Assembly: GCA_947629165.1 (NCBI GenBank)
Contig: CANRCR010000010.1
Coordinates: forward strand, 1-41,794
Reading direction: 5' to 3'
Length of the DNA: 41,794 bases
Source of the DNA: an uncultured Bacilli bacterium
GTDB taxonomy: Bacteria; Bacillota_I; Bacilli_A; RF39; UBA660
Below the pieces are notes generated by a model, which saw only the letters and a program-made list of their open reading frames with translations, made no database searches and was not told the origin of the DNA. This document shows, in pieces, positions 175 to 41,347 of the stretch. Positions within the stretch are counted from its first letter, which is position 1. Each line of letters opens with the position of its first letter. Made by a program: the position numbers and the translations under genes.

Positions 175-3100
175 ATGCCAGAACAAATGACGATTGAACA
201 CTTTAATGATTTAAAAGCCAAGATGCAAAAGATTTTTGAAGACGCTGAAAATTATTCAGTAGCACATTCGCGTGACATGGATTATGATGAGGATAAGTAT
301 ATTGAAACTGTAAAAACTACTTATTTTGATTTGCAAAAGTTATTGGCTTCTTGTGATCTAAGTGCTATCCCTTTTGAAAATTGGGAAGGCATTTATTTGA
401 TGGCAGATAAAGAACATCCGCTCGATTTTTCAGGTACGAGAGCGAATATTGATTTTAATCTCATTCAATTTGATATTGGTGAAGGAACAAAAACAAATTT
501 TCAAAATTGTAAAGTTCGAAACATTTCTTCTCTTTTTTATTACGATGAACATACTTTTAGTAGAGATGTTATGGAAGCAAATCCTACTTTATTTTTACTT
601 GGTGATTTTCCAGATACTATTAAAAGTAAATTTTATTCTTTTAAAGCGGAAGCTGATTATAGTATTCAGGATTTAGCTACTTTATCCGCTCAACAAATAA
701 AAGAATTACAGACCAAACGTAACTTTTCTTTTCACTGGCAAGATAAAAATATAATTAATCTTTTGGGTTTAGATAAAGCACTTGAATTATATCATTATTC
801 GGAAGAGGTTTATGAAGAATTAGAAGGATTATTAAATGGAAAGTATGCCCGTTATAGAGGGGATTCTCGTTATGTTCTTTCGAACGATGAATTGTTAGAT
901 CAAATAAAAAATTGTCCTCGGATGGAAGATGCTAGGGATTTATTATATAATGAGTTAAAAATGCGCATTTATACCTCCAATTCTGATATATTAAGTGATG
1001 ATTTTTCAGAGAACTTAAGAAAGGTGCTATCTCCTTTATTTTATATAACAAAAGACGATCACTTTGATTTGATTTCTACGCGTCTTTGTAGGCGCCTTCT
1101 CGCTTTAGAAGATATCATTGCTCATCCCGAAGTTTTAAAAGATGTTCCGGTAGAATATTTTTTATGGGATATAAATTTAAAAAACTATGGTAAGTCGTTG
1201 GGATATGGTAAGATAGGGGAAATAATTGAGGCTAATCTTGAATTTTTAAAAGATATTCCTGAAGCGGATGAAAGCATTGTTTTACCTTTCTTACGCGGTG
1301 ATTCTATCGAAGAAGTCTTCAATCAAAGTGCGGATGTTGCTGATACTGATTTTATGCAAGAGTCAGTTCCTCTTGTCAAAGCGCTTAAAGATCAATTGGG
1401 AAATGAAGAAGCTTGGCGTTATATGATTCAATATAAAAAATATATTGATTGTTTTACTTCTTATTATTCCCATATTCGTATTCCTTTTCCAATTACAAAA
1501 GATAATTTAGTTCAAGCTTTAGAAGATAAGGTGTATGAAGTAATTACACAAAATCGAATGGAATATAGTGAAAATTTACCGCCTCATTTTAAGGAACGTT
1601 TTAAGGAATTATTTCTCGGTAAAGATGTTCCGGCGAAAATAAAAACAGATTTTTATAAAAGAAAAATTAATCCTTCTTATCTCTTTTATAACCCATCTTG
1701 CATTCCTTTTCTTTTAGACACGAATTTACATAGTATGATACGTACCAATATACAACTATGCACTCCTGGAGCAATGGATGCTCAAGGGCAGATAGTTCCA
1801 CAATCTCTAGACTTTATGGATGAATACGCTTCTCGGTACGGACAAGAAAAACTTTTACAGTTACTTGCTAAATACGGAGATGCTTTAACGGATATTTCGA
1901 TTTTTAGTTTCCATGATGAGATAGAGGATATCGATCAAATTGAAGCATCTATAAAACGATCCATTTACAATAAAATTATGGGAGGAAATTACTTTTATGC
2001 TTATTTGGAAAATTGCCCAGATTTTGTAAAAGATTATCCTGAACTTTTTATCGATTTTGAAAAAATACCGAATATTCCTCAAGCAGAATGTGAAAGATTA
2101 AAAAAGGCTTTTTACGGTGGACAACTTGCTTATGATGATATTAAAAAATATCCTATATTGATCGAGGTATTAAAGGATAAGGAATTACGTGTTGCTTTCA
2201 GCAAAGCAGGGAACGGTTACCGTAATGCAAGAGATCTATTAGGTGGCGAGTTTGGGTTAACTATTAGTAGCCATACTCAAAAAAATAGTGATTTAGCATT
2301 ACTTGAAGCTTTTGGTAGCAAAAAGTTTTTGTCGTTATGTGTTACCTATGGAAGATATATGGACGGTATCGAAAGTCAACTAAGAAAAATGATTGCTTTT
2401 GTCGATGGAAAATATGTACCTCTTCCATCCGATACAACGGATACTAATAAAAGTTTAAGTTTTGAAGATATTACTGAGAAAATCGAAGAAATTATTGCAC
2501 GAGAATGTAAAAGTGGGAATATTCTTTATGGTGAAGATGCTCCAGACTTTTTAAAAGAAAGTCATCCAGAATTATTTTTAAGTGAAGATGCACCAGAAGA
2601 ATTAAGAAAATACTTTTATAGTCAAACTTATTCATTAGTTTTGGATTTTGAAGTTTTAAAAGAACACAAGGATTGGTTACCTTATTTAAAGGATAAAGCT
2701 ATATTGACCGCTCTTTTAAAAAATGGGAGTATTAAACCGCAATTACAACAATTCATTGAAAGTTTTGGAGAAGATAAAGTCCTAAAATTAGGTATAAACA
2801 GGGCTGAGACTGTAATGAAGATGCTTACTTCAAAACAAGTGAGTCTAATGAAGACTTGGTATGATAAAACAGGTGGAAAGTTTATTCCAGATTATGTCGT
2901 AATGCAAAATTTTCCTTTGGATGAAGTTGATAAGTTTTTAGTTTCTGGTGTTAGTTGGAGTAATTTAATGCGGATTAAAAGTTATGCCAATACTGCCGAG
3001 GGAAGAGATGCAATGTTAAGGATGGCCTATTCTTTTGGTGTTTTTGATAGTGATCAAAGAGGTACTAAAAAATTACAAGATTTACTTACTGGTATACCTC

Positions 3101-4875
3101 GTAAAATTGATGCGGAATATAGTTATATTTTAGAACAATTTGATTTAGCTAAACGTCAAAATGACGAGGGATTTACTTCGGATTTGGGTTCCAAAATGGA
3201 AAACTTTATCGAAGTTTTAAAAAGTGAAAAGGTGGCAATCGATTTAACTAAAGATATCTTTGCCCAAATATATCGCAAGAATGAAGATGGTTCATATACT
3301 TTAACGATAAGTCCCCAAAGTTATCCGAAAACGGCTAGGGAGATTCGTGCTCTTATAGAAGAGAATAAGGAATTTCCAATTTTGTCTGCCGAGAAGGCTC
3401 ATCGTTATTTAGGAGGCTTTAGATTAACGTATGATTCAGATTTTAGAGAATTCTTTTTAGCAAATATCGATAGTATTCTAGTAAATAAAGATTATCTCGA
3501 TACTATTTCTGAAATCCAAAGACGTTTTAAAGAGATTAAATCTACTTATAGTAATGTACATTTAACATTACAACTGGCCTTTAATCATGTTAAAGATAAT
3601 CGTTTTGAAAATGTTAATGTTGGAAATGAAAGTGTTGCTAGAGTAGCTACCATGGTGTCCGAAATAGAAAATGGAGAAAAATATACTCAAGAAGATTTTG
3701 AGGTTTTGCAAAAAATATTTAATTACGGAAAACAAAGAGTATTTAGTAGTATCCCGAGAATTGAAGGGCAACGGGGTAAATATAGTTATGAGATGTTACG
3801 GCTGGATGATGCTATGGCATTGGGAATAGGACATTTAACTGATTGTTGCCAACATTTGGGTGGACCTGCTGAAGTTTGTATGGAACATAGTATGGTCGAT
3901 AAAAATGGTCGTGTCTTTGTGGTTTATGATGAAGAAGGAAATAGAGTGGCTCAGAGTTGGGTATGGCGGAATAAGGATATTATATGTTTTGATAATATTG
4001 AAATTCCAAATAAAGCTTTTGCAAGAGCACAAAAAAGTGATTCTCTTGATGGTAAGAAAAAGTTAACTGATGACATTTATGGCCTTTATAGACAAGCTGC
4101 ACATGAATTAATGGAAATAGATGCTCAAACTTATAAAGAACTTTTGGAAAGTGGTAAAATAACTCAAGAACAGTATGATGGATTAAGGTTAGGTAAAGTA
4201 ACCGTTGGTTTGGGTCATAATGATATTGCCGAATCTTTGAAAGAAAAGGCTCCTCTTGATACCAGTGCTCCGGCAAGTCCTGAACCTTTTGAACCACCAG
4301 TAAAATTGTACCACAGTCTTTATTTAGACGATTCTAGGACGCAGTTTATTTTGGAAGAACGTGAAGGCCGGGTAAATTATAATGGAGAAACACTTCCAAT
4401 TTATCATGATGACTATTTAGAACGTGATGATTCTAAATTTACCAAAACGGAATTAAAGACTTTAAAAAGTTTGGAGTTAGTAACTAAAGAAAATCCTTAT
4501 TATTTTGAAACACAATTATCTGATCAAGTTGATTCAGAACACCTTGTTTCGGCGTTAGCTATAAATTATAATTTGAATCCTTCGACGACAAGAGTTATTG
4601 TACATCCTAATTTTGCTATTATCTATGATACGGATGCTGATCGAGTTCGTATAGGGGATTTGCTATTTAATACTAGAATTGATAATGGCGAGCAACAGAT
4701 GGATATCGAGGATAAAGTCGTGATGCAAATGAGACTGGCTTTAGATCAAATTGGTGCTGATAAAGAAGTGGATATTTCTAGTTTGAATGAAAAGCAAAAA
4801 GGTATGTATGCCAAAGCAAAAAGTTTAACCGAAGAAGATTTCGATGTTGAAAGGGGACTTAGTCATGGAAAATAA
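175..4875 (+). CDS. Giant repeat-containing protein of unknown function with a conserved C-terminal Cys/Trp domain
   Basis: I do not recognise a named family for this 1566-residue protein. It has no signal peptide or membrane helix, so it is probably cytoplasmic. A motif of the form (h)P-(E/T)-LF-l-x-(d/e)-xP-xxl+xxFY recurs near residues 135-155, 474-494, 617-647 and 798-819, and weaker relatives are seen elsewhere, so much of the chain seems built from a degenerate repeat of roughly 150-200 residues. Near the C-terminus comes a different, well-formed domain: LTDCCQ at 1221-1226, SWVWRN at 1261-1266 and CFDNIEIP at 1271-1278. Its layout (Cys/His motif, short strand, then R/S-W-x-W and a D-N-x-E end) reminds me of the PcfJ/GNAT-like domains of mobile-element proteins, but this is only a resemblance. 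A Pro-rich linker near 1361-1377 precedes a last globular part. The start ATG has AGGAG at 161-165. The stop overlaps the next gene by 11 bases, suggesting translational coupling. Confidence 0.85.
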   Translation: MPEQMTIEHFNDLKAKMQKIFEDAENYSVAHSRDMDYDEDKYIETVKTTYFDLQKLLASCDLSAIPFENWEGIYLMADKEHPLDFSGTRANIDFNLIQFDIGEGTKTNFQNCKVRNISSLFYYDEHTFSRDVMEANPTLFLLGDFPDTIKSKFYSFKAEADYSIQDLATLSAQQIKELQTKRNFSFHWQDKNIINLLGLDKALELYHYSEEVYEELEGLLNGKYARYRGDSRYVLSNDELLDQIKNCPRMEDARDLLYNELKMRIYTSNSDILSDDFSENLRKVLSPLFYITKDDHFDLISTRLCRRLLALEDIIAHPEVLKDVPVEYFLWDINLKNYGKSLGYGKIGEIIEANLEFLKDIPEADESIVLPFLRGDSIEEVFNQSADVADTDFMQESVPLVKALKDQLGNEEAWRYMIQYKKYIDCFTSYYSHIRIPFPITKDNLVQALEDKVYEVITQNRMEYSENLPPHFKERFKELFLGKDVPAKIKTDFYKRKINPSYLFYNPSCIPFLLDTNLHSMIRTNIQLCTPGAMDAQGQIVPQSLDFMDEYASRYGQEKLLQLLAKYGDALTDISIFSFHDEIEDIDQIEASIKRSIYNKIMGGNYFYAYLENCPDFVKDYPELFIDFEKIPNIPQAECERLKKAFYGGQLAYDDIKKYPILIEVLKDKELRVAFSKAGNGYRNARDLLGGEFGLTISSHTQKNSDLALLEAFGSKKFLSLCVTYGRYMDGIESQLRKMIAFVDGKYVPLPSDTTDTNKSLSFEDITEKIEEIIARECKSGNILYGEDAPDFLKESHPELFLSEDAPEELRKYFYSQTYSLVLDFEVLKEHKDWLPYLKDKAILTALLKNGSIKPQLQQFIESFGEDKVLKLGINRAETVMKMLTSKQVSLMKTWYDKTGGKFIPDYVVMQNFPLDEVDKFLVSGVSWSNLMRIKSYANTAEGRDAMLRMAYSFGVFDSDQRGTKKLQDLLTGIPRKIDAEYSYILEQFDLAKRQNDEGFTSDLGSKMENFIEVLKSEKVAIDLTKDIFAQIYRKNEDGSYTLTISPQSYPKTAREIRALIEENKEFPILSAEKAHRYLGGFRLTYDSDFREFFLANIDSILVNKDYLDTISEIQRRFKEIKSTYSNVHLTLQLAFNHVKDNRFENVNVGNESVARVATMVSEIENGEKYTQEDFEVLQKIFNYGKQRVFSSIPRIEGQRGKYSYEMLRLDDAMALGIGHLTDCCQHLGGPAEVCMEHSMVDKNGRVFVVYDEEGNRVAQSWVWRNKDIICFDNIEIPNKAFARAQKSDSLDGKKKLTDDIYGLYRQAAHELMEIDAQTYKELLESGKITQEQYDGLRLGKVTVGLGHNDIAESLKEKAPLDTSAPASPEPFEPPVKLYHSLYLDDSRTQFILEEREGRVNYNGETLPIYHDDYLERDDSKFTKTELKTLKSLELVTKENPYYFETQLSDQVDSEHLVSALAINYNLNPSTTRVIVHPNFAIIYDTDADRVRIGDLLFNTRIDNGEQQMDIEDKVVMQMRLALDQIGADKEVDISSLNEKQKGMYAKAKSLTEEDFDVERGLSHGK

Positions 4876-5866
4876 TATTGATACCATTATTGCGAATGCT
4901 TTGATTGTTAATAAAGATATCTTAGCTAAGAACATTGAGGTCATTATTCAGCAATTGAAGGTGGCTTTTGACAAGAATAAAGAAGTAATCGTTCAGACTA
5001 ATGAAATTGATAAGAAAAAAGACAATGGCTTTATTATGGATTTTGGTATTATCGATAATTTGTTTCAAAGTATTCGAGGAGAAGCGTTACGTTATGGTCA
5101 AGTAACCCTTTCTCAAAAAGATGACGAAAAGAAAATTATTTATGGCAAGCAAATAATGGATAAAGGTAATGTTATTGTTGTAACCGATGGTAATCCCTAT
5201 GTTTTAATCGAAATGATTTTAAAAAATATTTTAGTGGGTAATACAGTGATATTTGTAGATCAAGGTTATATGTATGGAACGAATCGCCTTATTATTGAAA
5301 TTACACAAAGTGTTTTGGAACGTTTAGGTGCTCCTAGATATTTGATTCAAATATATAATTCTGAAAATTTCGATGAAGTGTTTGCTAATTATGCTAATAT
5401 CGATTTGGTTGTTTGTGTTGGAAGTCGCTCTTTACAAAATTTAGTGCTTACGAAAAGTAAAAATGAAACCATTGTGAGTGGTTATGAAAACTTTGATTTA
5501 TATATCGAAGATACGACACATATCGAATTTTTAAAGAAGATTATGGAAACCGGATTACCGGTTCAGGTTTATATTCAAGAAGATCAAGAAGTGGACTTTG
5601 ACGAAGCGATTCGTGTAGCGGATATCGAGGAAGCAATTGCACAGATTAATTATAATGGAAATAAATATAGCGTCGCTATTTTTACACAATCGGCGGATCA
5701 TGCTTCCCAGTTTATTCGAGAAGTTAAATCAGCGATTGTGACCGTGAATACGAGTCCAACGATCGAACGAATAATCGATATTAAACAAACAGATTTAATG
5801 AATGAAAAAACAGTTATTTATCCGATGAGTTTTAAATTCGAAGATCATCTTGAAATCCCTTCTTAA
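4865..5866 (+). CDS. ProA/aldehyde-dehydrogenase-superfamily-like protein, probably catalytically dead
   Basis: This is a 333-residue protein that resembles gamma-glutamyl phosphate reductase (ProA, usually about 415 residues) in its C-terminal half. The stretch QINYNGNKYSVAIFT (260-274) followed by a V-x-x-N-T-S segment (about 292-297) matches the ProA pattern HIN-x-x-G-S-x-H-S-x-x-I-x-T and the N-A-S motif. The middle (LVVCVGSRSLQNLV) resembles the ProA VIPRGS region. The place where ALDH-fold enzymes carry the nucleophilic Cys is here METGLPVQVYIQED (227-240) with no Cys, so I infer a pseudoenzyme or a changed chemistry. I chose the ATG at 4865 because GGGGA lies 8 bases before it; an upstream ATG at 4844 lacks this. 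The gene overlaps the end of the giant gene and probably forms an operon with it. No proB is visible nearby, which argues against proline synthesis. Confidence 0.75.
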   Translation: MENNIDTIIANALIVNKDILAKNIEVIIQQLKVAFDKNKEVIVQTNEIDKKKDNGFIMDFGIIDNLFQSIRGEALRYGQVTLSQKDDEKKIIYGKQIMDKGNVIVVTDGNPYVLIEMILKNILVGNTVIFVDQGYMYGTNRLIIEITQSVLERLGAPRYLIQIYNSENFDEVFANYANIDLVVCVGSRSLQNLVLTKSKNETIVSGYENFDLYIEDTTHIEFLKKIMETGLPVQVYIQEDQEVDFDEAIRVADIEEAIAQINYNGNKYSVAIFTQSADHASQFIREVKSAIVTVNTSPTIERIIDIKQTDLMNEKTVIYPMSFKFEDHLEIPS

Positions 5867-5879
5867 TAAGTGATTATAA

Positions 5880-5908
5880 TTGACAAAGACCCCCTTAAGT
5901 GATAAAAT
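5880..5908 (+). promoter_or_regulatory. Sigma-A-type promoter interleaved with a terminator
   Basis: TTGACA (5880-5885), a 17-base spacer and TAAAAT (5903-5908) form a good housekeeping promoter for the 5935 gene. The -10 box lies in the loop of the hairpin 5889-5928, which itself looks like the terminator of the preceding gene. Confidence 0.75.
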
Positions 5909-5932
5909 ATTAAGCACTTTTAGGGGGTTTTT
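5889..5932 (+). terminator. Hairpin terminator overlapping promoter and RBS of the next gene
   Basis: ACCCCCTTAAGTG (5889-5901) is a near-perfect inverted repeat of CACTTTTAGGGGGT (5915-5928), followed by a T run to 5932. It sits 23 bases after the ProA-like gene and fits an intrinsic terminator. The right arm also supplies AGGGGG (5922-5927), the ribosome-binding site of the following ATG at 5935. Confidence 0.65.
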
Positions 5933-5934
5933 AT

Positions 5935-7002
5935 ATGAAGATTAATCGAACCGATAGGAATGATATCGATGATCTTAAAGTACTTTCTTCATGGAAAGGA
6001 ATATTTTTAACGCGAAGAGGAGAGCATGTAGCATTTTATCGAGGACCACATCAAGAGGATTACACTTTCGCATTTCCTAAAAAAGATTTTACAATGACTT
6101 TTAATTCGTATCCGATGGGAAATTTTAATACGCAAAAAGTGGAACGTGTTTTGAATCGGTTTGTGCATCAAATTGTAGGACGGTATCTTTTGAGTGAAGA
6201 TTATACCTATCTTCCTTCGGATTTTATTAAAGTTCAAGAAGATGGTACCGCTCAAATTACGATTCATTCGGATTATGGGAATGGTAATTTAATTATTACG
6301 CGCACGAACAAAAACGCAACCATTACATTTCAAGGAAATGATACGCACACATTTGGAAATAATTTTAACATTTTAACGAGCAGTAAAGACTATGCTGGAT
6401 ATGTCGAGGAATTCGGGAAACTTTTTAATCAATTGATGTCTATTTCTAATCAATCAACGGAAGAGAAAAAGATTACTTCTTGCGACCCACGTTTTTTTGT
6501 TCAGGTCGAAGAGAATGGCGCAGGATTTCAAAAAGACGGACACGGTTTGGCATTTTTTCAACCTTACCGTGGATCGGATCTTATTTTCCATATGAAAGGA
6601 TATGACGATACCATCGTAATTGAGAAGAATGGTGGTACGGCAGAAGCACGCACTTATGAACTTTTGGAAGAGACCATTTATTCGCTCTTTGCTGGAGCGG
6701 TTTTAGATGGGAAAGAATCTTTTTCGAGACTTTCGCAAGATTTTATTAATTTAAAAGAGAAGAAAATTACGTGGCATTCAGAAGCAACTAACCAAAGTAC
6801 GATGGAACTTTTGTATTCTCCTAGTGATATCCGGATACATATTTCTTCTTTAAAGGAAGAAAATGTGGTCGGTTTTACGAATGTCATTGTCGGTTTTGGA
6901 GGTTCCCGTTATCAACATCATTATCGTAGTTTTACCCGTCTTTTAGAAAATCTTCAAAATACTTTTTCAACGAGTGAAAAAGGAAAAACTTATCATAAAT
7001 AA
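5935..7002 (+). CDS. Internally duplicated protein of unknown function, paralogue A
   Basis: This 355-residue soluble protein belongs to no family I recognise. It consists of two related halves of about 165 residues. The N-terminal half carries LPSDFI (93-98) followed by ITIHSD (108-113). The C-terminal half carries LSQDFI (266-271) followed by ITWHSE (278-283), with a similar beta-rich surround and a terminal helix (EEFGKLFNQLM versus RSFTRLLENLQNTF). The next gene is a clear paralogue in the same order. AGGGGG 8 bases before the ATG supports the start. The two genes are separated by 20 bases and are probably cotranscribed. No catalytic motif is evident; a binding or structural role is possible, but that is only a guess. 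Confidence 0.85.
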   Translation: MKINRTDRNDIDDLKVLSSWKGIFLTRRGEHVAFYRGPHQEDYTFAFPKKDFTMTFNSYPMGNFNTQKVERVLNRFVHQIVGRYLLSEDYTYLPSDFIKVQEDGTAQITIHSDYGNGNLIITRTNKNATITFQGNDTHTFGNNFNILTSSKDYAGYVEEFGKLFNQLMSISNQSTEEKKITSCDPRFFVQVEENGAGFQKDGHGLAFFQPYRGSDLIFHMKGYDDTIVIEKNGGTAEARTYELLEETIYSLFAGAVLDGKESFSRLSQDFINLKEKKITWHSEATNQSTMELLYSPSDIRIHISSLKEENVVGFTNVIVGFGGSRYQHHYRSFTRLLENLQNTFSTSEKGKTYHK

Positions 7003-7022: not shown

Positions 7023-8117
7023 ATGAATCAAAAATATGAAAATATGGAACGTAGGAACAATCCGACAACGATTGAAATCGTAAAAAAACAAAATAGCAAA
7101 TTTTTTCTTATCAACGATGGGAAAAACAAATTCCTTTTGGGACGCGATATCAAGGGAAATTATTACTTTGATTTACAAAGTGATACTTCTTTCTTTGTTT
7201 TACCGCTTCATCCTTTTATGTACTATGTGCAAGAGAAGCTTACAGGATATGTTTTTGATTTCTTTAAATGTTGTTTAGGTCGTTCTATTTTAGATGATGC
7301 TTATTCGTCGATGCCTTCCGATTTTTTAGAAGTTAATCCGAATTCTGGTCAAACTTATCTGTTACTTCATTCCGATACTACTTCGAACGATTTAATGTTA
7401 TCGTATCATCCGGACGACTTTGATCATCTTTATTTCATTGTTACTTCTCGAAATAAATCTTTAAATGAAGGGAATCGTATTGTTCTTACGAGAGAGGGAC
7501 CTTATCGTGCTTTTATCTCTTCGTTTGATGACCTTTTTAATCATTTTGATTATTTTTTAGATCCGGAAGTGGAAATAGAACAACCCCTTCCAGATTCTCA
7601 TTTTAAGGTTACTTCGACTTCCAATTTAAAGACGTTTCAAAAGGACGATAAAAAGTTTTCTCTTTATACGGATAGTCAAAGGGATTATTACTTTATATCG
7701 GATAATACCCATCCACTTTTTTCGATGGATCTTTGCAAGATGGAAAGCGGAACATCAGAAAGAGCAGTTTATGACCATTTTAATACTTTAATGGAGCGCA
7801 TCTACGGACAAGTGATTATGGAGGGGAGTTTTCGTGCACGTCGTTATCCGGATGAATTTCTTATTCCGCATCAGAAAGCGATTCTTTGGAAACACGACGA
7901 TGGTTATAACCAAGCTTTACGCCTAACGCATGGAAAGGATGTCATTCATCTTTCGATTGGACCGTATTCTTTGGATAAACCGCTTCATACCATCGACGAT
8001 GTACGAATTTGTGCTTCGGGTAGTTCGTATCGATCACAGTATCTTAACTTTGCACAATTGTTTCATGAAATTGATCAAACTTTTCCTGATACAAGTAAAA
8101 AAACGTATACTAAATAA
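7023..8117 (+). CDS. Internally duplicated protein of unknown function, paralogue B
   Basis: This 364-residue protein is a tandem paralogue of the preceding gene. Its N-terminal half has MPSDFLEV (97-104) followed by LLLHSD (113-118), and its C-terminal half has YPDEFLIP (275-282) followed by AILWKHDD, matching the PSDF...hHSD core of paralogue A. The C-termini also match: GSSYRSQYLNFAQLF here against GSRYQHHYRSFTRLL there, then a Thr/Lys-rich tail ending in TYTK versus TYHK. GAGG lies about 9 bases before the ATG. Function unknown; there are no membrane segments and no signal peptide. Confidence 0.85.
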   Translation: MNQKYENMERRNNPTTIEIVKKQNSKFFLINDGKNKFLLGRDIKGNYYFDLQSDTSFFVLPLHPFMYYVQEKLTGYVFDFFKCCLGRSILDDAYSSMPSDFLEVNPNSGQTYLLLHSDTTSNDLMLSYHPDDFDHLYFIVTSRNKSLNEGNRIVLTREGPYRAFISSFDDLFNHFDYFLDPEVEIEQPLPDSHFKVTSTSNLKTFQKDDKKFSLYTDSQRDYYFISDNTHPLFSMDLCKMESGTSERAVYDHFNTLMERIYGQVIMEGSFRARRYPDEFLIPHQKAILWKHDDGYNQALRLTHGKDVIHLSIGPYSLDKPLHTIDDVRICASGSSYRSQYLNFAQLFHEIDQTFPDTSKKTYTK

Positions 8118-8376: not shown

Positions 8377-9066
8377 ATGTTTTATGATATGACACAAGCA
8401 ATTCAAGCATGTGAGGAGGAACCTCTGCTGATCTTTGAAGCAATGCGCGAAGGTCACTTTGATTTAGTAAATTGCTTGTTAAGTAAAAAACACGTATCTA
8501 TCAATACGGTCGATGAACACGGTGACGATGTATTATCGAACTTATTGAAATACGGTGAATACGATCTTGTCTTAAAATTCATGAAAGATAAGAGTTGGGA
8601 TGTAAATCATCAAAATAATGAAGGCGATACTTTTGCTCATATTTTAGTTTCTATCGACTATAAAAAAGTAGCTAGTATCATTCAAAAGTTAAAAAAATTG
8701 AAAGATTTCATGCCTAACATTAAGAATAATAAAGGAGAGACCATCTTAGATAAGTCCATCAATGATCACTACATATATACGACAGTTAAAATATTGGAAG
8801 ACGAGCGATTTAATAATATCGATATCGTATCTTTTAAAAACTTGTACGATACCTATATTAAAACAAATAATTACGGGAAATATTCGCGTCTTTCAAACTT
8901 AGAAATAATTGTTGATAACTTGGAGGATAAAGAATTATTACCTCGTATGGAAAAAGTGATTAAGTTTGTTCATATGAACTTCGATGTTGTAAAAGAAGAA
9001 ATATTCCATAATAAAAAAGGAACGATGGATGAATTAATCAATCAGTTGTTAAAAGAGAGTATTTAA
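8377..9066 (+). CDS. Ankyrin-repeat-like protein
   Basis: This 229-residue soluble protein has an N-terminal half built from ankyrin-like helical pairs: FEAMREGHFDLVNCLLSK, then VNTVDEHGDDVL-type and NHQNNEGDTFAHILV-type turns, then NIKNNKGETILDKSI. Three to four repeats fit residues about 15-135; the C-terminal part is helical and unassigned. Ankyrin repeats mediate protein-protein contact; the partner is unknown. The gene has its own very strong promoter and a long leader, and it is closed by a terminator whose stem includes the stop codon, so it is a single-gene unit. AAGGAG precedes the ATG at a 10-12 base distance. Confidence 0.8.
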   Translation: MFYDMTQAIQACEEEPLLIFEAMREGHFDLVNCLLSKKHVSINTVDEHGDDVLSNLLKYGEYDLVLKFMKDKSWDVNHQNNEGDTFAHILVSIDYKKVASIIQKLKKLKDFMPNIKNNKGETILDKSINDHYIYTTVKILEDERFNNIDIVSFKNLYDTYIKTNNYGKYSRLSNLEIIVDNLEDKELLPRMEKVIKFVHMNFDVVKEEIFHNKKGTMDELINQLLKESI

Positions 9067-40531: not shown

Positions 40532-41347
40532 ATGATGCTAGAGTTAAAAGTAGATAATCAAATTATTAATTATACTAAAATAAATGATGAGGATTATATT
40601 TCTATTACAGATATGCTTAAGTCAAAAGATGGAGATTTTTTTGTATCTGATTGGCTTAGGAATAGAAACACTATTGAATTTTTAGGAATTTGGGAGGAAC
40701 TTCATAATCCTAGTTTTAATTACGGCGAATTCGCCATAATTAAAAGTCAAGCAGGTTTAAATAGTTATAAGATTAGTGTTAAAGAATGGGTTAATAAAAC
40801 TAATGCTATTGGGATAATATCAAAAGCTGGAAGATATGGTGGAACATATGCACATAAAGATATTGCTTTTGAATTTGGCATGTGGATTAGTCCAAAATTT
40901 AAATTATTGTTAATCAAAGAGTTTGAAAGGCTAAAACAAGAAGAACAAAAACAGCTAGGATGGAGTGCTAAAAGGGAATTATCTAAAATTAATTATAAAA
41001 TTCATACTGATGCAATTAAAAATAATTTAATACCGCAAAAATTAAGCAAAGATCAAATAAATTTTGTTTATGCTGAAGAAGCTGATGTATTAAATATGGC
41101 ATTATTTGGAATGACAGCAAAAGAATGGCGAGAAAAGAATAGTAATTTAAATGGTAATATGAGAGATTACGCTTCTATTGATGAACTTATATGTTTAGCA
41201 AATTTAGAAAATTTAAATTCAGTATTTATTAATTATGGATTAACTCAAGCTGAAAGACTTGAGCGATTAAATAAAATTGCTATTTCTCAGATAAAAATAC
41301 TGTCAGAAAATAATACTAAATATTTAAATAATAGTGAAAAAAGTTAA
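40532..41347 (+). CDS. KilA-N domain protein
   Basis: 271 residues. The N-terminal 140 residues match KilA-N domains, DNA-binding modules of phage and mobile-element proteins: YISITDMLKSKDG, VSDWLRNRNTIEFLGIWE, KISVKEWVNKTNAIGI and GGTYAHKDIAFEFGMWISP (110-118 hold the DIAFEFGMW core), then KEFERLKQE. The C-terminal part (KRELSKINYKIHTDAIK, then a conserved ALFGMTAKEWREKN region) is typical of the proteins with this module in Firmicutes prophages. It uses many ATA, AGA and AGG codons, unlike the CGT-rich housekeeping genes. AGAGGAGGAAA is a strong RBS. It lies after the tRNA genes together with a RhuM remnant, so I infer a mobile-element residue. Confidence 0.92.
   Translation: MMLELKVDNQIINYTKINDEDYISITDMLKSKDGDFFVSDWLRNRNTIEFLGIWEELHNPSFNYGEFAIIKSQAGLNSYKISVKEWVNKTNAIGIISKAGRYGGTYAHKDIAFEFGMWISPKFKLLLIKEFERLKQEEQKQLGWSAKRELSKINYKIHTDAIKNNLIPQKLSKDQINFVYAEEADVLNMALFGMTAKEWREKNSNLNGNMRDYASIDELICLANLENLNSVFINYGLTQAERLERLNKIAISQIKILSENNTKYLNNSEKS

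Follow-up and report, generated by a model that had tools for sequence, protein, structure and literature searches.

The window (the whole stretch of 41,794 nucleotides that was analysed) belongs to contig C10 of a 1.09-Mb assembly, and this contig begins with the open reading frame of a giant protein of 1566 residues. The observation of the earlier note holds; the frame is intact, being open from ATG to stop. It is followed by a second gene, which encodes a ProA-like protein, and by a hairpin terminator that closes this two-gene unit. The features of the unit are as follows.

175..4875, + strand: gene of the giant protein, 1566 aa, intact ORF from ATG to stop
343..519, + strand: conserved N-terminal module, residues 57-115 (DLS.IPFE.WEG...DFS.T.ANIDF)
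550..645, + strand: PELF/FY block 1, residues 126-157, degenerate (unit HMMs)
1003..1101, + strand: PELF/FY block 2, residues 277-309, degenerate (unit HMMs)
1576..1734, + strand: PELF/FY block 3, residues 468-520 (unit HMMs)
2008..2190, + strand: PELF/FY block 4, residues 612-672 (unit HMMs)
2536..2703, + strand: PELF/FY block 5, residues 788-843, nearest to the consensus (unit HMMs)
3697..4374, + strand: GNAT-like TxCCQ / QSWVWRN / CFDNIE domain, residues 1175-1400, to the conserved Y.D...Q
3841..3852, + strand: DCCQ motif, residues 1223-1226 (C1224, C1225)
3955..4002, + strand: strands SWVWRN (1261-1266) and CFDNIE (1271-1276), with W1262, W1264, R1265, C1271, D1273, N1274 and E1276
4865..5866, + strand: partner gene, ProA-like pseudo-enzyme, likely start ATG at 4865, ribosome-binding site aaggggac
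5885..5932, + strand: strong hairpin terminator with a T-run at the end of the unit (-20.3 kcal/mol, z -4.5)

Sequence searches of Pfam, NCBIfam, PHROGs, PADLOC and the PDB named no part of the giant protein, which agrees with the previous statement that no named family has this architecture. The PADLOC models gave no match to a known anti-phage defence system, and the weak Pfam and NCBIfam matches that did appear (PhaR, FGAR-AT linker, RED_C) lay far under their cut-offs and were treated as chance. A search for published work on PcfJ-like proteins of phages and on giant repeat genes returned nothing relevant, and a second copy (paralogue) of the giant was searched for in the genome of the window and not found.

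The PELF/FY motif had been described as recurring in at least four copies. Here, we built an HMM for each suspected unit from 31 relatives and ran it against the rest of the protein with its own unit masked. Five PELF...FY blocks were recovered above the level of 500 shuffles, and the comparison of the protein with itself thus revealed a consistent repeat. The best cross-unit scores were 53, 36, 32 and 20 bits, in comparison to at most 7.9 bits for the best of the 500 shuffles; the two N-terminal blocks were weaker (best approximately 14-20 bits). Successive copies are spaced by about 150-200 residues, and the consensus reads roughly P-E-L-F-L-x-x-D-A-P-E-E-L-K-x-x-F-Y, about 15-20 residues, then I/L-P-Y-L-x-x-K. 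The long helical repeat scaffold that had been proposed is also found in the AlphaFold model of residues 1-1059, which is almost purely helical (pLDDT 80.8, pTM 0.51). The giant thus has helical units repeated beyond chance, as a solenoid scaffold does. Assignment of residues 1-1059 to a known solenoid class was rejected, with no PDB match below E 0.07.

The ProA-like partner and its coupling to the giant

The listed ORF of the partner begins at 4844, and a start at the ATG at 4865, which has a good ribosome site, gives an overlap of 11 nt with the giant gene. The same overlap is the commonest one in relatives, in which the partner usually overlaps the 3' end of the giant by 11-62 nt. Neighbour clustering placed a ProA-like partner of about 340 aa next to the end-domain family in 46 loci. 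This coupled pseudo-ProA, as well as the replacement of the end domain by a nucleotidyltransferase that we describe below, was not part of the earlier note.

The partner is akin to the proline-synthesis enzyme gamma-glutamyl-phosphate reductase ProA (TIGR00407) over ProA positions 82-234 and 324-371, with a score of 54 bits that lies under the curated ProA cut-off of 289-317. We aligned 41 partners with two genuine ProA proteins. The segment of the catalytic Cys (CNxxE) was deleted in all 41 partners and, in comparison to ProA, their C-terminal substrate region was shortened. The partner is best explained as a derivative of ProA (aldehyde-dehydrogenase superfamily) that kept the first, cofactor-side half and lost the catalytic half. 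Searches of 36 genomes of the same family gave no ProA above the cut-off, and the only ProA matches in the genome of the window are to the partner gene.

Other subfamilies of the end domain adjoin ankyrin proteins, a short protein of cold-shock-like type or a protein of 222-491 aa (cluster 2), so that members can evidently do without the ProA-like protein. At L111:3815-5290 and at eight further loci, a partner of another subfamily carries the conserved block IDISNKDKAEVLA.LYN...P.G.G..QYDPTPM...YN.DN..GLAQ. Pfam gives no match for this partner, and its block recalls what we take to be a common phage or plasmid protein.

Conservation and predicted fold of the end domain

The motifs DCCQ, SWVWRN and CFDNIE, which had been assigned to a compact domain towards the C-terminus, all fall within one compact conserved domain at residues 1175-1400. 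In an alignment of 86 relatives, which takes in cyanophage and Parcubacteria proteins, C1225 and G1219 are invariant (86/86), while the conservation of W1262, W1264, C1271, D1273, E1276 and P1194 is 96% or higher, the first five of these being kept in 83-85 relatives. A Pfam scan of the end region in the 86 members named no part of it and gave no GNAT match, and the Pfam families listed for these members do not include PcfJ (PF14284).

The AlphaFold model of residues 1060-1566, made with the 86 relatives, is confident, with a pLDDT of 91.5 and a pTM of 0.89. When it was compared with the PDB by Foldseek, the top fifty matches were GNAT enzymes and GNAT-fold Fem transferases, including VipF, NatD, RimI, GCN5, SpeG, RibT and FemX, with a probability of up to 0.99; these matches are borderline, with E values of at least 5.6e-3 and none below 1e-3. 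No described family was found over the full length of the giant. A likeness to the GNAT superfamily (NatD, RimI, GCN5, SpeG, VipF, RibT) is suggested by the predicted order of strands and helices as well as by the best Foldseek matches. However, the GNAT pyrophosphate loop [QRK]xxGx[GA], which follows strand 4, is present in 0 of the 86 relatives. A canonical acetyl-CoA-using GNAT was rejected on this ground, and for the same reason catalysis by the end domain may be absent. We know of no GNAT counterpart of the Cys/Trp/Asp/Glu motifs of the domain.

The end had also been compared to PcfJ. In the Foldseek search against viral models (BFVD) one phage protein matched at 6e-11, and PcfJ-like phage proteins took ranks 2, 4 and 15 at borderline E values of about 1e-2 to 6e-2. 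The PcfJ-like family resembles the end domain in a strand, a helix and a Cys followed by a hairpin of strands in which polar residues are conserved, and in both cases the domain stands at the end of longer proteins. Homology to PcfJ was nevertheless rejected by profile comparison, which was not significant (hhalign probability 0.1%, E=0.52). Since the PDB E values are borderline, the acetyl-CoA loop is absent and the PcfJ profile match is not significant, we call the end domain only "GNAT-like". On its predicted structure, it is a GNAT-like domain of an undescribed family, and an established member of neither GNAT nor PcfJ.

These results bear on two explanations. According to the first, the giant would be a divergent PcfJ-type mobile-element protein that helps plasmids or phages to spread or to be maintained, as the ranks among the viral models, a single aligned stretch that pairs the strand-helix-Cys of both families and the relatives in cyanophages might suggest. 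We consider this quite unlikely in view of the profile comparison; moreover, conjugation or phage genes do not recur beside the bacterial loci, and no match was found in 72,556 plasmids. The second is a serious rival to the sensor-effector pair that we favour below. In it the GNAT-like module would be non-catalytic and bind a ligand or a protein, and the pair would regulate metabolism, e.g., as a sensor of glutamyl or NAD(P)H status in a lineage that has lost ProA. The loop missing from 86/86 relatives speaks for this possibility, as does the mostly housekeeping chromosomal context, and the partner, having no catalytic Cys in 41/41 cases, would itself be a binding protein. However, the conservation of Cys, Asp and Glu suggests a chemical role, and a metabolic regulator fits poorly with the patchy presence, the change of site and the PolC-discordant identity reported in the next section; overall, we regard it as rather unlikely.

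Relatives, end-domain exchange and distribution

The named relatives come from RF39-like Bacilli and Clostridia, mostly of rabbit, ruminant and chicken gut, and from one Parcubacteria contig; the RF39 placement is one that we presume from their names, among them Ca. Faecimonas and Ca. Coprosoma. End-domain members range from about 420 to 1874 aa and, at L103:4174-6132, a DUF4116-repeat ORF (Clostridia) directly precedes a separate CCQ end-domain ORF and a ProA-like gene. Thus, it is the scaffold that varies, and the end domain is retained.

The end can also be exchanged. Among 146 relatives the PELF unit was found in nine genomes, four of which have it with the CCQ end domain and four in giants that end in a nucleotidyltransferase, the ninth being a weak partial match. 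Like nucleotidyltransferases of the OAS/CCA/CD-NTase type, the sister giants have GST-RGT-PGDGDFD and a third Asp, and all three acidic residues are invariant. Their nucleotidyltransferase gave weak SMODS and oligonucleotide-cyclase matches and no PDB profile match. Unlike the known types, it is joined to a PELF solenoid, and a CBASS context was not seen. The PELF giants with a catalytic-looking nucleotidyltransferase are the following.

L034:4900-9819: PELF giant with catalytic-looking nucleotidyltransferase
L040:3852-8435 (-): the same architecture
L041:5359-9468: the same architecture
L042:4761-9581 (-): the same architecture
L060:10244-14680: the same architecture

The module at residues 57-115 is common to the giant of the window and the nucleotidyltransferase-type giants of L034 and L060. 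At L060, a CCQ giant is directly followed by a ProA-like gene and this, in turn, by the nucleotidyltransferase giant, which shares this N-terminal module. A conserved unnamed domain (KGIG...SD.TPLD.D; HYGIRTGF) precedes the nucleotidyltransferase in such giants and might be an enzyme in its own right. The end domain was also seen in cyanophage proteins of 643-697 aa (L051:4573-6666, which is Microcystis phage MaMV-DC ORF68L, and L052-L057), and it may serve a separate function in the virus.

Within the family of the window genome, the end domain occurs in 107 of 386 genomes (28%), with up to six copies each, and when genomes were drawn evenly across the phylum, the six positive ones were all from that family. 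In the congeners G001 and G002 the giant was matched remotely or not at all. G001 and G003 have the genes that lie downstream in the window (one or two members of a paralogous family, an ankyrin gene and MiaB) and lack the giant at that place; G003 has its own unit on a different contig, with the caveat of a contig binning error. Between G000 and G003, PolC is 84% identical and the C-terminal part of the giant 53%, while between G000 and G065, which is of another genus, the values are 60% and 56%, respectively. This discordance with PolC, together with the absence from the site, indicates that the unit was transferred horizontally or was repeatedly lost and gained. The unit behaves as an accessory gene. 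An ordinary fast-evolving housekeeping scaffold, which mostly housekeeping neighbours and intact ORFs might indicate, is hard to reconcile with a gene missing from most relatives, including the congeners G001 and G002; its natural absence suggests that loss is tolerated without a growth defect, and we find this explanation very improbable.

A link to mobile elements, suggested previously, was not borne out by the neighbours, although the unit stands at different sites in congeners. Housekeeping genes predominate among those adjoining it, and families of defence or mobile elements do not recur beside the loci, no neighbour family being found in more than two of them; a defence-island or prophage context was therefore rejected. 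In the window, two adjacent paralogues (5935-7002 and 7023-8117; 23% identical, E 2e-17) have no family assigned. A small ankyrin-repeat protein at 8377-9066, 84% identical in congeners, belongs to a conserved neighbourhood outside the unit of the giant, and one or two members of the paralogue family adjoin the ankyrin gene in G003 and G001 as well. Both the ankyrin gene and the paralogous pair were rejected as members of the unit, since they lie near MiaB in congeners that lack the giant at that site. Further away, at 40532-41347, the window encodes a KilA-N domain protein; proteins with this domain are often phage-derived.

A possible sensor-effector pair

The earlier note saw in the giant a candidate effector or surveillance protein, and we infer a role of this kind. 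One form of it would be an exported effector directed against the animal host or competitors. Many effectors are giant repeat proteins whose ends vary, some subfamilies have ankyrin partners, and the bacterial sources with a stated origin are mostly animal gut or rumen. However, no signal peptide was visible by eye at the N-terminus of the giant, secretion genes were not seen nearby and the partner has a cytosolic metabolic fold, so we give export little chance.

The reading that we prefer, and hold tentatively, is a modular intracellular sensor-effector pair, encoded by an accessory unit of two genes that RF39-like gut Bacilli and certain Clostridia carry. The product of the first gene would be a cytoplasmic alpha-solenoid of variable length, formed in this clade by PELF/FY repeats, with the GNAT-like domain at its C-terminal side. 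The solenoid would recognise a target or trigger, and the GNAT-like domain, in which Cys, Asp and Glu residues are conserved, would be the acting part, possibly through catalysis. The pseudo-ProA may bind the giant in cis as a regulatory subunit that senses NAD(P) or another ligand, and the pair may act against phages, plasmids or competitors. A scaffold of variable length, an exchangeable end, a pseudo-enzyme, tandem copies, patchiness and phage relatives are together what would be expected of a sensor-effector conflict unit. A bolder proposal is a new class of modular intracellular conflict system, spread among genome-reduced gut bacteria, in which a unit of two or three genes would join exchangeable solenoid sensors either to a Cys-dependent GNAT-fold effector that an NAD(P)-binding pseudo-ProA restrains or to a signal-making nucleotidyltransferase; we consider this conceivable but doubtful.

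The family has no match in Pfam, NCBIfam, PHROGs or PADLOC, yet it is present in more than a quarter of the sampled genomes of an uncultured gut lineage with reduced genomes. The unit costs its host about 5 kb in a genome of 1.1 Mb, and the family has relatives in phages. With a dead metabolic enzyme as the partner and an end that is swapped for a nucleotidyltransferase, the sensor-effector hypothesis is directly testable.
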